Source: Crenothrix polyspora
GTDB taxonomy: Bacteria; Pseudomonadota; Gammaproteobacteria; Methylococcales; Methylomonadaceae
Length of the DNA: 64,000 nt
Reading direction: 5' to 3'
Assembly (NCBI RefSeq): GCF_900163755.1
Contig: NZ_FUKI01000135.1
Coordinates: 1-64,000 of the forward strand
A program made the position numbers and the translations under genes. The notes under the pieces are model-generated. The model worked only from the letters and a program-made list of their open reading frames with translations, was not told the DNA's origin and searched no databases. Numbering within the stretch: the first letter of the stretch is position 1; each line of letters opens with the position of its first letter. Shown in pieces: positions 8,966 through 20,190 of this stretch.

Positions 8966-10168
8966 ATGTCACCCACACTCACTATCAATTTAGACACCGG
9001 TTTTTTACATATCACTACTGAACCAGGACGTATTCCGCTCAGCCGTTTATTGGGTTTTGCGGCACGGATCAGTAGTAAACGAAAATTTTTGTTGGTCAGC
9101 AAAATCTTGGGTAAACACCATCCAGTAGCACCGCGCATGATGAGTTGGTCTTACCGTGCCTTAGCGCGTGCCTTGCTTAAACACAGTCTCATTGGCGAAT
9201 CTCTCTGGCTAGGCATGGCAGAAACCGCTACTGGTTTGGGCTACGGTGTCTTTGCCGCCGCTTATCGTGAAGGCGTGCGCAACAGCTTGTTTATACAAAC
9301 CACCCGCTACCATATCGACGGTGTGAAACGTTTGGAATTTACAGAAGCCCACAGCCATGCCACCGATTTCTTCCTATATTATCCCGATACAGAAGAACGC
9401 CAGCAGCAGTTTTATCATGCGCAAACCCTGGTATTAATTGATGATGAAATCAGCACCGGTAAAACCTTTTTACGTTTGATTCAAGCTTACCAAGCCATTA
9501 ACCCTAATCTGTGCAAAGTGTTTATTGTCAGCCTGGTTAATTTTGCCAACCCGATTGATCGCAAAGCCCTAGAAACAGAAGCCGGCGTGCTGGTACAGTG
9601 GGTTTCTCTCAGGCAAGGCTGTTTTCATTTTGAAGAACACGATAATCCCGCATTGGCCGCTATAACGGTCAACGTATTGGGTAATGGCCGCTGTAAAAAA
9701 CAGTTATTCGGTTGGCCAGGACGACAAGGCTTAAATGCGCCAATTACACTCGACAGTGATATTGTTAATGCCTTACTGAACTTCTTTAAACCCGCAACAA
9801 CCAGCGACACCTTGATACGTCCGGTTTTGATTCTAGGATCGGGTGAATGCAACGTGCCTGCTTACTTGCTTGGCCGCGAACTGGAACGGCACGGCTATAA
9901 GGTAAAAGTGCAAAGTACCACGCGCTCGCCGATTCACGTCAGCAATGCCATAACCTCAGTCATTCAATTTGAAGATAATTACGATGACCAGATCCCTAAT
10001 TTTATCTACAACCTTGACCCCAGCGCGTATCAAGAAATTATCCTGTGCCATGAAACACCGTTGTGCCACGCTTTGCGCACACTGCTTGATCAATGGCACG
10101 CTATCAGCGCCCGCATAGACCTTCCGGCACACTCAACCCATGCAAGCTTACATTTTTTTAGACCTTGA
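8966..10168 (+). CDS. Ter-module phosphoribosyltransferase with TRSP domain
   Basis: Protein of 400 residues matching the phosphoribosyltransferase of tellurium-resistance gene clusters. The N-terminal domain (about 1-240) has GMAETATGLG and TEAHSHATDFF, which I recognise as hallmarks of this subfamily, and the PRPP-binding loop LVLIDDEISTGKT (about 155-167). The C-terminal part, starting near VLILGSGECNVPAYLLGREL, resembles the TRSP domain. Comparative genomics places these enzymes with HAD and ATP-grasp proteins in a proposed nucleotide-derivative pathway; the product is unknown. The end overlaps the HAD gene by 29 bases. Confidence 0.85.
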   Translation: MSPTLTINLDTGFLHITTEPGRIPLSRLLGFAARISSKRKFLLVSKILGKHHPVAPRMMSWSYRALARALLKHSLIGESLWLGMAETATGLGYGVFAAAYREGVRNSLFIQTTRYHIDGVKRLEFTEAHSHATDFFLYYPDTEERQQQFYHAQTLVLIDDEISTGKTFLRLIQAYQAINPNLCKVFIVSLVNFANPIDRKALETEAGVLVQWVSLRQGCFHFEEHDNPALAAITVNVLGNGRCKKQLFGWPGRQGLNAPITLDSDIVNALLNFFKPATTSDTLIRPVLILGSGECNVPAYLLGRELERHGYKVKVQSTTRSPIHVSNAITSVIQFEDNYDDQIPNFIYNLDPSAYQEIILCHETPLCHALRTLLDQWHAISARIDLPAHSTHASLHFFRP

Positions 10169-10886
10169 CGATACGCTGTTTCAAACGCTCAAAAAATGCG
10201 CCGAGGACGATTATCCGCACTTAAAGTTACGCGCTACTTTACCAGACGGTACGCCCAATTCTTTTGCTACCGCTAAGCAGCAATGGTTGTGGCAGTGGTT
10301 GGCCAGAGATTTTAAAATGGTGGCGGTAACCGCACGAGATTTTCATGCCTTTGGCCGTGTTGATTTACCGTTTCAGGAAGACGTGGTGTTAAATCACGGT
10401 GCGGTTATTTTAGATAAGCAACGCAATATAGATGCGCTGTGGATGGCTAAAATGCAAGCTGCATTGCCATTTTACGTTGAGAAATTAATGGCCGTTTGGC
10501 AACAGGTTACAGCGTTTTGTGCGTCAGATACAGGCTTTAAACTCAGATTGGTTGATGACTTTGATATGACGTGGTATGGCGTTATCAAGCATAAATCCGG
10601 CATCGAAGCTGCATTGCTACCGATATTGCACGCTATAAAAACACACGAGCATTTTGTTGATGGCAGTCTGTATTGGCATTTAAACGGCAATAATTTGGCG
10701 ATTTTACCCAAAATAATCAATAAACAGGATGCGGTGGCGTATTTGATTGCACGTTATAAACAGCAATTTTCCGAGCTAATCACTTTTGCCGCCGGTGATA
10801 GTCAATCTGATGCGGCGTTTTTGGCACTTTGTGATTATGCACTGATTCCAACCAATACCCAGTTGTTCAAAACATTCATTCCTTAA
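10140..10886 (+). CDS. HAD family phosphatase of the Ter module
   Basis: HAD-superfamily hydrolase of 248 residues with the nucleophile motif FLDLDDTLF (Asp8, Asp10) at the extreme N-terminus, a Thr/Ser motif II candidate in VAVTARDFH, and the acidic motif FAAGDSQSDAAFLAL near residue 218. It resembles Cof/SPP-type phosphatases. The start lies inside the end of the phosphoribosyltransferase gene, which implies translational coupling and a joint pathway. An HAD protein next to this phosphoribosyltransferase is the usual arrangement in Ter clusters. Substrate unknown. Confidence 0.87.
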   Translation: MQAYIFLDLDDTLFQTLKKCAEDDYPHLKLRATLPDGTPNSFATAKQQWLWQWLARDFKMVAVTARDFHAFGRVDLPFQEDVVLNHGAVILDKQRNIDALWMAKMQAALPFYVEKLMAVWQQVTAFCASDTGFKLRLVDDFDMTWYGVIKHKSGIEAALLPILHAIKTHEHFVDGSLYWHLNGNNLAILPKIINKQDAVAYLIARYKQQFSELITFAAGDSQSDAAFLALCDYALIPTNTQLFKTFIP

Positions 10887-11142: not shown

Positions 11143-12309
11143 GTGCATTCAAATTATTTGGTTGTGGCTAGTACAAATATGATTTCTATAAAAATCCGCA
11201 TTATACTTAGCATAACTGCTACAGTAACCTTAGGTAGTGTAGTCACTGACAATGCTTATGCTGATACTATCAAACAATTTCCCATTCTTGAAAGACTTCA
11301 GCGTCAAGGGAAACCGTTAGCAAGTGAAACCACAAAATGGATGAAAAAATGGCGAGGTGTCGACCTAGATAACCCCGTATTTAAACTGAATGAACTCTCA
11401 GGCAGTTCATCTGTGTATTTAAAAGTCCGAAAGCCAGATCCTACCGATAAAGACGGCTACAAAGCCTATGGCACATTCGCGTCAAGCAACGCATCGGGCA
11501 ATCCTTACACTGAAATTGCCTATTTTAATCTAGCGGCTATCTTAGGCTACGATCATATTTTTCGGCCTGCCGTTCGCTATGCATTAGGGGCACGAGCAAG
11601 ACAGGCATTCAAGTTTTTACTGCAAAATACAGTTATTCCTGTAGGCAATCGTCTTGAAAACAAAATACACGTTTTGCAAGACATTGCAACCGGCAAGCCA
11701 CTGAAAGGTTGCTTAAAAGCCAAAAAACTCGATACAAACATGGCTTACGATGCCATTGCCGACATAAAAAATAATTTGCCTCGAAAAAACAACGCTATCA
11801 TCGCCGCTTTGCAGGCTGGCAATACACAACCCAGTTCCAGTCAAAAGCTTACTCTTCTATCAGGTTATAAAGCCAATCTACTGCAATTGGCACGCGAGTA
11901 TTCAATCATCATGACCTTGGATGTTATCTTTCAGCAATGGGATCGTTACAGCGGTGCTAATGTTGTTTTAGCAAAAGATAATACGGGTATAGCGCATTTT
12001 TATTCCACAGATAATGGCGGTGCTACATTAGAAAAAAATACAACGCAAGTAGTGCATAATCTCAAAAATTTTAGTCGCTATGACCGCAAAACAATTCAAC
12101 AATTAAGAGCGCTGTATGTTTTTTTGGTGACCCCATCCAAAGGTTTTCTAGGCTACAAAAATGCAGAAACTTTTGTGGTTGATTTGGGGTTATATAACAA
12201 TCTAAAACCAACAGAATACGTTGCTATACTCAAACAAAACTTGCGGCTACTGCTTAATCAGGTGGCTAACGTTGAGCGTCAGTTTGGTAACAAGGCCTAC
12301 CTGCCATAA
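11143..12309 (+). CDS. secreted protein, putative FAM20/HipA-like kinase
   Basis: Exported protein of 388 residues (GTG start; a second possible start is the ATG at 11179). A signal peptide ends near DNAYA. I do not recognise it as a named family, but the spacing of polar residues fits an atypical kinase: a beta-strand lysine in SVYLKVRK (Lys94), a helix glutamate in PYTEIAYFNLAAILG (Glu124), a catalytic-loop-like QQWDRYSGAN (Asp267, Asn273) and a metal-binding-like STDNGGA (Asp290). The DNG variant of DFG is known from FAM20 secreted kinases. It stands alone, followed by a hairpin and carA. The kinase reading is inference; expression as a secreted protein is better supported. Confidence 0.6.
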   Translation: MHSNYLVVASTNMISIKIRIILSITATVTLGSVVTDNAYADTIKQFPILERLQRQGKPLASETTKWMKKWRGVDLDNPVFKLNELSGSSSVYLKVRKPDPTDKDGYKAYGTFASSNASGNPYTEIAYFNLAAILGYDHIFRPAVRYALGARARQAFKFLLQNTVIPVGNRLENKIHVLQDIATGKPLKGCLKAKKLDTNMAYDAIADIKNNLPRKNNAIIAALQAGNTQPSSSQKLTLLSGYKANLLQLAREYSIIMTLDVIFQQWDRYSGANVVLAKDNTGIAHFYSTDNGGATLEKNTTQVVHNLKNFSRYDRKTIQQLRALYVFLVTPSKGFLGYKNAETFVVDLGLYNNLKPTEYVAILKQNLRLLLNQVANVERQFGNKAYLP

Positions 12310-18837: not shown

Positions 18838-20094
18838 TTAATCCAAAACGGGCTGTGTGTTGCGTACCAATCTAAGCTGATAGTCACTGTATTTATAGCT
18901 CCAGTCGTCATACCCATAGCCAAAAAAAACATACCATGCATAACTGCTACTGCTTGCATATGGCGATGACGACCAAAACCACGCCGGTGTTTCTGGAAAT
19001 GCTGCTGTCACAATAGTCGGGCTGACGGAATTATCATCACAGGCGTTCAAGGTTTTTTCGCCTACCGCGTGGGTTTTACCACTGCTGCAATACACTAAAG
19101 TTTTCAACTCCTCTCGTGTGGGCACACGCCAATCGGTATAACCTGCATAATCAACGTTCTTAAAGCTATTCATTGCCTGTTCCCATGAATAGCTTGTTGC
19201 CGCACCGGTACAACTTTTGCCTTGCCAATTTTGTCCCAGGCTACACCGCATCCACATTAAGCCTGTTTTAGTGTCTTTTACCAAACCGTCCTTCACTTGA
19301 TAATGTGCTATTGCTTGCCAACCCGCTGAGCTGTCGTGTTTAGTTTGCAAAGCTTCAATACGCTGCTGACGCTGCGTTTTTGTATTATATTCTAACTGCT
19401 TCTGTGCAATAGCTGCATACTGGCCACTAGGGTATTGCTGTAAATAATTTCGATATAATTCAATATTGGGATGCGTTTGAATACTACGCCAATATATTTT
19501 TTCAGCGTTACCGGCATCGTCTACTATTTCAACATGCTCAGTCGGTAGGTTTACTGCACGCGACATTTTCATATAACTGTTCAGTTGGGTACGCGCAATA
19601 TCAGCGAACCGACCCTTCGGATACTGTTTTAAATAATCTCGATATAATTCAACGCTGGGATGGCTTTCAACACTTGCCCAATACAGTTGCTCAATACTGG
19701 CTGTGTCCTGCGTTGTTAGATTTTTTGGGGTCGACACAAATGCTTGATACAGCTCAGCTGTGGGCATTAACTCTGCGTAATCGGCTATTTGGGTACGCGC
19801 CAATCTTATAAATTTTCCGTTAGGGTACTGATTTAGATACGTACGATAGGCGGCTGCACTGGGGTGTTTTTCTACACTTTCCCAATAAATTTGCTCGGTT
19901 TTATCGGCTTCATCATCAGGAAAAACCTCTTTAACATCAATAACAAACATTAAAAATGTCATTATACTGACAACAATACCGGCAATTTTGGTGACGAGGC
20001 TTGAATGATGGTGCGCGACAAAAGCCTGAAAAAGTAGCCCCCCTGATACAATAGAGCCCAACAGCTTAAGCACGGTAATAATAAGTGCCGACAT
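18838..20094 (-). CDS. membrane protein with three tandem repeats and DUF1566 domain
   Basis: Protein of about 418 residues. Two N-terminal membrane helices (about 1-50) are followed by three copies of a 36-residue unit of the pattern IYW-SV--HP---YR-YL-QYP-G, spaced through about residues 65-235, and a C-terminal DUF1566 (Lcl) domain with DTKTGLMWMRCSLG, GYTDWRVPTREELKTL and FWSSSPYASSSSYAW. The repeats look like a TPR-related helical hairpin. DUF1566 is found in many exported or surface proteins. Start is uncertain: an in-frame GTG at 20142 would add 16 residues before the first helix. Function unknown. Confidence 0.8.
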   Translation of the reverse strand: MSALIITVLKLLGSIVSGGLLFQAFVAHHHSSLVTKIAGIVVSIMTFLMFVIDVKEVFPDDEADKTEQIYWESVEKHPSAAAYRTYLNQYPNGKFIRLARTQIADYAELMPTAELYQAFVSTPKNLTTQDTASIEQLYWASVESHPSVELYRDYLKQYPKGRFADIARTQLNSYMKMSRAVNLPTEHVEIVDDAGNAEKIYWRSIQTHPNIELYRNYLQQYPSGQYAAIAQKQLEYNTKTQRQQRIEALQTKHDSSAGWQAIAHYQVKDGLVKDTKTGLMWMRCSLGQNWQGKSCTGAATSYSWEQAMNSFKNVDYAGYTDWRVPTREELKTLVYCSSGKTHAVGEKTLNACDDNSVSPTIVTAAFPETPAWFWSSSPYASSSSYAWYVFFGYGYDDWSYKYSDYQLRLVRNTQPVLD

Positions 20095-20190
20095 GATATG
20101 GTTTATTTTATTATTGGCGGCAGTAACCAAGCCAAGTTTCACCTGTTACCACACGACTGAATGCTTACATATTAGCAGAATCGAGCGATT

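Follow-up and report, generated by a model that had tools for sequence, protein, structure and literature searches.

The window, a stretch of 64,000 nucleotides of DNA of the methane-eating bacterium Crenothrix polyspora, carries the gene for a protein, P0001, that belongs to an undescribed, rare and apparently horizontally scattered family of exported kinase-like proteins and that, judged from its sequence, most likely works like an exported FAM20-type kinase. The gene, its leader, the conserved residues and an in-register similarity to FAM20 are established; sequence comparison makes a kinase fold very likely for the family and phosphotransfer probable. The features concerned are the following (coordinates in the window).

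11143..12309, forward strand: gene for the exported kinase-like protein P0001 (open reading frame, homologues, purifying selection).
11143..11262, forward strand: N-terminal signal peptide, residues 1-40, with an AYA|D cleavage site (direct reading).
11422..11424, forward strand: Lys94, candidate ATP-binding Lys of strand beta-3; the Lys is kept only by the Crenothrix copies and by the alphaproteobacterial branch at 45% identity.
11506..11580, forward strand: predicted helix alpha-C segment YTEIAYFNLAAILGYDHIFRPAVRY, with Glu124 at 11512-11514; aligns with FAM20 NAEIAAFHLDRLLGF.
11920..11961, forward strand: predicted catalytic segment D260-V-I-F-Q-Q-W-D267-R268-Y-S-G-A-N273, with D-x6-D-R spacing as in FAM20.
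12010..12024, forward strand: putative metal-binding motif D290-N-G-G-A at the DFG position, DSG in one copy (alignment).

Bacterial kinases that act outside the cytoplasm are poorly understood, ATP being scarce there. To our knowledge, the FAM20 literature describes FAM20 from animals only; a bacterial family carrying the alpha-C and DNG signatures of FAM20 would, if true, bear on the origin of secreted kinases and offer a small system for questions about the donor and substrate of an exported bacterial kinase. Its branch lacking the Lys is a natural experiment on how far the canonical site can be pared down.

At 11143-12309 there is a genuine gene under purifying selection. The reverse strand over the same interval is full of stops, and the copies for which dS could be estimated show dN of 0.20-0.37 versus dS of 2.0-3.2 (dS was saturated for the other pairs). 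The start codon is uncertain: GTG at 11143, which gives a protein of 388 amino acids, is preceded by a weak AAGAGA, and ATG at 11179, which gives 376, is the position where one homologue starts. By direct reading, the signal peptide is retained with either start. The gene lies about 257 bases from the upstream HAD-like gene and 130 bases from the downstream carA and, judged by position, looks monocistronic. The n-region, h-region and AYA|D site of the signal peptide were read directly in P0001, and homologues have a similar leader at the N-terminus. A preliminary description of this DNA had proposed an exported protein with a signal peptide, which is borne out by the leader ending in AYA|D. 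The mature protein contains a single Cys, which is not conserved.

The residues that the same description had assigned to a kinase site, K94, E124, WDRYSGAN (D267, N273) and STDNGGA (D290), were all found in the open reading frame at the positions it gave. Their conservation was followed in an alignment (A5) of nine sequences, two of them partial. Positions invariant in 9/9 sequences include D260, Q265, W266, D267, R268, N273, D290, G292, G293 and A294, with Asp290-(Asn/Ser)-Gly present throughout, and E124 is invariant in the 8/8 sequences covering it; down to 22-28% identity, E124, D267, R268, N273, D290 and G292 are unchanged. The chance that D267, N273 and D290 would all fall among the 18 invariant positions of the 142 columns fully covered in nine sequences is approximately 0.0017, and with E124 added (eight covering sequences) approximately 0.00015. 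Position 94 is Lys in the five closer members and His, His and Phe in the three distant members covering it. Thus, conservation of the five proposed residues holds for Asp267, Asn273 and Asp290 (9/9) and for Glu124 (8/8) but fails for Lys94; of Lys94, Asp267 and Asp290, whose loss in homologues was to speak against a kinase, only Lys94 varies. The catalytic loop reads D-R-Y-x-x-x-N here versus D-R-F-[FW]-[NR]-N in the distant branch, which has the canonical +5 spacing from catalytic Asp to Asn. Positions 192 and 194 are also basic in 9/9 sequences, each being K or R.

We compared the mature family with solved FAM20 sequences using hhalign without secondary-structure scoring; the FAM20 set comprised four animal sequences taken from PDB chains (trimmed), and the CotH and HipA sequences came from genome loci. 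The FAM20 comparison scored 29.7 (E = 0.0021); the highest of 300 column shuffles reached 21.65, and the highest of 300 six-column block shuffles reached 28.8. The hhalign probabilities were low (13-19%), and the case therefore rests on the shuffles and on register, without a database-level E-value. In the top alignment E124 stood opposite the Glu of FAM20 NAEIAAFHL, which corresponds to the Glu that is canonical in alpha-C (PMC5865150). The second-best alignment, separate from the first, placed D260-x6-D267-R268 on FAM20 FDFLIGNADR. Taken apart, the gamma branch was in register at alpha-C and the distant branch at the catalytic Asp, on anchors named beforehand, although two branches of the same family count as only partly independent; column-shuffled profiles paired any anchor in 0-2/120 trials. 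When the FAM20 profile was ranked against 252 ORFs (window and fetched loci), rank 1 went to the 45%-identical homologue and rank 4 to a distant homologue, whose match spanned the catalytic loop to DNG. The window protein alone was only 18th, so the signal belongs to the family and not to a single sequence. FAM20 and HipA, whose fold relation is accepted, gave E = 0.0066 in the same set-up, so that an E of 0.0021 is as expected of a true but remote relation. A HMMER search of the PDB with the family profile returned no kinase at E <= 10.

Besides export, which is common to both, the family shares several features with FAM20 (FAM20A/B/C, animal secretory-pathway kinases; PDB 5yh0, 5xom, 5yh3). 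These are the alpha-C EIAxFxLxxxLG motif, in which E124 within TEIAYFNLAAILG aligned in register above all shuffles and corresponds to the canonical Glu218 of ceFam20 in its EIAAFHLDR context; the D-x6-D-R catalytic segment (D260...D267-R268, invariant in the family); and DNG in place of DFG (D290-N/S-G in the family, Asp-Asn-Gly/Ala in FAM20). In contrast, the catalytic DR is followed by HHYE in FAM20 and by Y/F-x(2-3)-N in the family (Y-S-G-A-N in P0001, F-F-N-N in the distant branch), and the conserved disulfide-forming cysteines of FAM20 have no conserved equivalent. The Glu that forms an ion pair in FAM20 (ceFam20 Glu213) precedes the alpha-C Glu by five residues; at this place P0001 has Gly119 and its homologues have non-acidic residues, and a Gln there in FAM20A contributes to its being a pseudokinase (PMC5865150). 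The beta-3 Lys, conserved in FAM20, is kept by five family members and is H, H and F in three. Of the FAM20/HipA-like kinase reading first given to P0001, the part that stands is a residue pattern close to FAM20, with profile tests above chance, but several features that define FAM20 are missing from the family.

Membership in FAM20, CotH or HipA proper was rejected. The Pfam Fam20C model PF06702 did not match P0001, and its search of the whole genome was empty; control genomes gave no match either. The spore-coat/extracellular CotH kinases (PF08757) resemble the family in being secreted and kinase-like and in the DUF4956 gene that neighbours the distant branch. PF08757 did not match P0001, it matched four other genes in the same genome, and inclusion of P0002, a protein described below, in the profile was needed for the alignment to reach the catalytic and metal Asp of CotH. 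The Ser/Thr kinase toxin HipA (PF07804) has its Asn at +5 after the catalytic Asp, as in the distant branch (+6 in P0001), and its alpha-C Glu was in register in several comparisons, but HipA is cytosolic and paired with HipB. PF07804 (HipA_C) did not match P0001, no HipA_C was found in the window genome, and no HipB-like small gene lies directly upstream of the P0001 gene. By description, the family can also be likened to novel kinase-like families of Legionella near FAM20 and CotH, which are bacterial and atypical kinase-like too but are Legionella effectors (PMC9758233). Pfam, NCBIfam and PDB sequence searches with P0001 or the family gave nothing significant, and absence from Pfam and NCBIfam agrees with the earlier proposal of an undescribed bacterial family.

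AlphaFold2, run on two input sequences with each in turn as query, gave unusable models (pLDDT 39.5 and 36.1) because too few sequences were available, and the fold of the family consequently remains inferred. Foldseek on the first of these low-pLDDT models returned only matches with E > 1, the most probable being zebrafish Fam20C, and was not counted as evidence.

The interpretation that we favour, with reasonable but not strong confidence, is an exported kinase-fold enzyme of an undescribed family, with an active site most like that of FAM20, that transfers phosphate to exported proteins or surface sugars. P0001 would be exported by Sec, and the mature protein (residues 41-388) would fold as two lobes, with Lys94 and Glu124 as the residues that hold the ATP phosphates, Asp267 as catalytic base, and Asn273 and Asp290 as ligands of Mg2+ or Mn2+. 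Phosphate would pass from the nucleotide to these acceptors, probably while a sheath or matrix is being formed. The distant branch, without Lys94, may use another residue in its place, or its chemistry may have changed or been lost. Crenothrix is a sheathed filament, and because of this and of the DUF4956 link described below, sheath or matrix proteins or glycans are our best guess, by analogy, at the substrate. Catalysis is probable and not secured, because the family has no equivalent of the ion-pair Glu that FAM20C needs, and Lys94 is missing from one branch.

The little ATP expected beyond the cytoplasm and the loss of Lys94 in a branch where Glu124, Asp267 and Asp290 stay would also suit a kinase-fold pseudoenzyme or an enzyme of altered chemistry, one that serves to bind a nucleotide, a metal or a glycan or that transfers a group other than ordinary phosphate, such as AMP. 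The missing FAM20 ion-pair Glu points the same way (compare the Gln of the pseudokinase FAM20A; PMC5865150). However, the window copy retains Lys, Glu, Asp, Asn and Asp, and D267, N273 and D290, invariant in remote members, argue for kept catalysis and metal binding; we regard this alternative as unlikely. It is quite improbable that the pattern is coincidental and the protein has a non-kinase fold, for example that of a binding or matrix protein. Such a protein would account for the failure to find a family, PDB-sequence or confident structural match and is compatible with the unusable AlphaFold2 models, but the scores exceeded all 300 column shuffles, two branches were separately in register on the pre-named anchors, and exactly the catalytic positions are invariant. 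Within the exported-kinase interpretation, P0001 could be a small-molecule or glycan kinase like FAM20B (a xylose kinase) that acts on envelope exopolysaccharide or lipid, a variant to which we give tentative credence. FAM20B represents the ancestral animal FAM20 activity (PMC5865150, PMC7948968) and DUF4956/CotH modules adjoin pel polysaccharide loci (PMC7112168), but none of the loci read links a glycan-biosynthesis gene to the family.

The scattered distribution of the family suggests spread by horizontal transfer. Three copies (100, 65 and 54% identity) lie on three contigs of the window genome (3.9 Mb), one copy was found in a second genome of the genus, which matches Crenothrix polyspora NZ_FUKJ01000323, and none in a third; of 311 genomes of the host's order, only these two have the family. 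A copy at 45% identity occurs in a single genome of an alphaproteobacterial genus, probably Bradyrhizobium, whose genomes are large; 60 other genomes of that genus have none. The same alphaproteobacterial order yielded remote copies (22-28% identity), two complete and two cut by contig ends, in four genomes that all belong to one genus of a different family. The Alphaproteobacteria and phylum samples contained no further relatives of this kind, and searches of IMG/VR and PLSDB (plasmids) returned no relatives. The weak matches in genomes G161 (coiled coil), G433 and G684 and the second match in G833 look like chance; the loci L008, L019 and L020 are without a family member.

The P0001 gene has alkaline phosphatase and PRTase_2/HAD genes upstream and carA/carB downstream; these were rejected as conserved context, the L012, L013 and L005 copies having other neighbours. 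In both distant-branch genomes with enough sequence (two species, one genus), the gene immediately before the family gene encodes an N-terminal DUF4956 membrane domain (E = 3e-12 and 6e-12). CotH, polyphosphate polymerase, DUF4956 and DUF4832 form a contiguous accessory set beside pel loci in streptococci and clostridia (PMC7112168). The window genome has four CotH genes, of which two were examined and both have leaders; in the stretches read, no DUF4956 or CotH gene lies directly beside its family copies. Elsewhere in this genome a DUF4956 gene is clustered with a gene that, read directly, presumably encodes a VTC-type polyphosphate polymerase. It is conceivable, if speculative, that a scattered exported kinase family at the FAM20 end of the superfamily replaces CotH beside DUF4956 in one lineage, with the Lys-less branch, its active site otherwise kept, using another basic residue for ATP or a different transfer reaction beyond the cytoplasm.

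The DUF4956 cluster of the window genome (L031:2271-7160, reverse strand) comprises DUF4956, periplasmic-adaptor-like, outer-membrane-efflux-like and VTC-like polyphosphate polymerase genes. In the two distant-branch loci (L029:4566-5645 and L026:4890-5978, both forward strand), the gene directly before the kinase-like gene shows an odd fusion of DUF4956 to a C-terminal integrase core (rve).

In the 45%-identical genome, the adjacent opposite-strand gene (L011:6568-7923, reverse strand) encodes P0002, a leader-bearing protein with QQDRFGN and KDNDCG motifs that is possibly a second, more diverged kinase-like protein. Its best FAM20 alignment also falls on the catalytic Asp-Arg. Its status as a second clear family member is only suggestive: it gave E = 0.00063 in one direction, but a decoy placed immediately above it when ORFs were ranked as a control. 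It had no relatives in 60 other genomes. After P0002, a leader-bearing protein (L011:7989-8663, reverse strand) has a phosphatase-like HCWYGLHASG segment in which Ala replaces the Arg of Cys-x5-Arg, and no Pfam match.

Upstream of the P0001 gene (window 8966-10886, forward strand), the gene for a PRTase_2-TRSP protein precedes one for a HAD phosphatase; such pairs occur in tellurite-resistance-associated nucleotide systems. Further downstream (window 18838-20142, reverse strand), three YW..(V/I)..HP....YR.YL.QYP.G repeats precede an Lcl C-terminal domain, and a second Lcl-type protein is encoded at L031:8291-8878.
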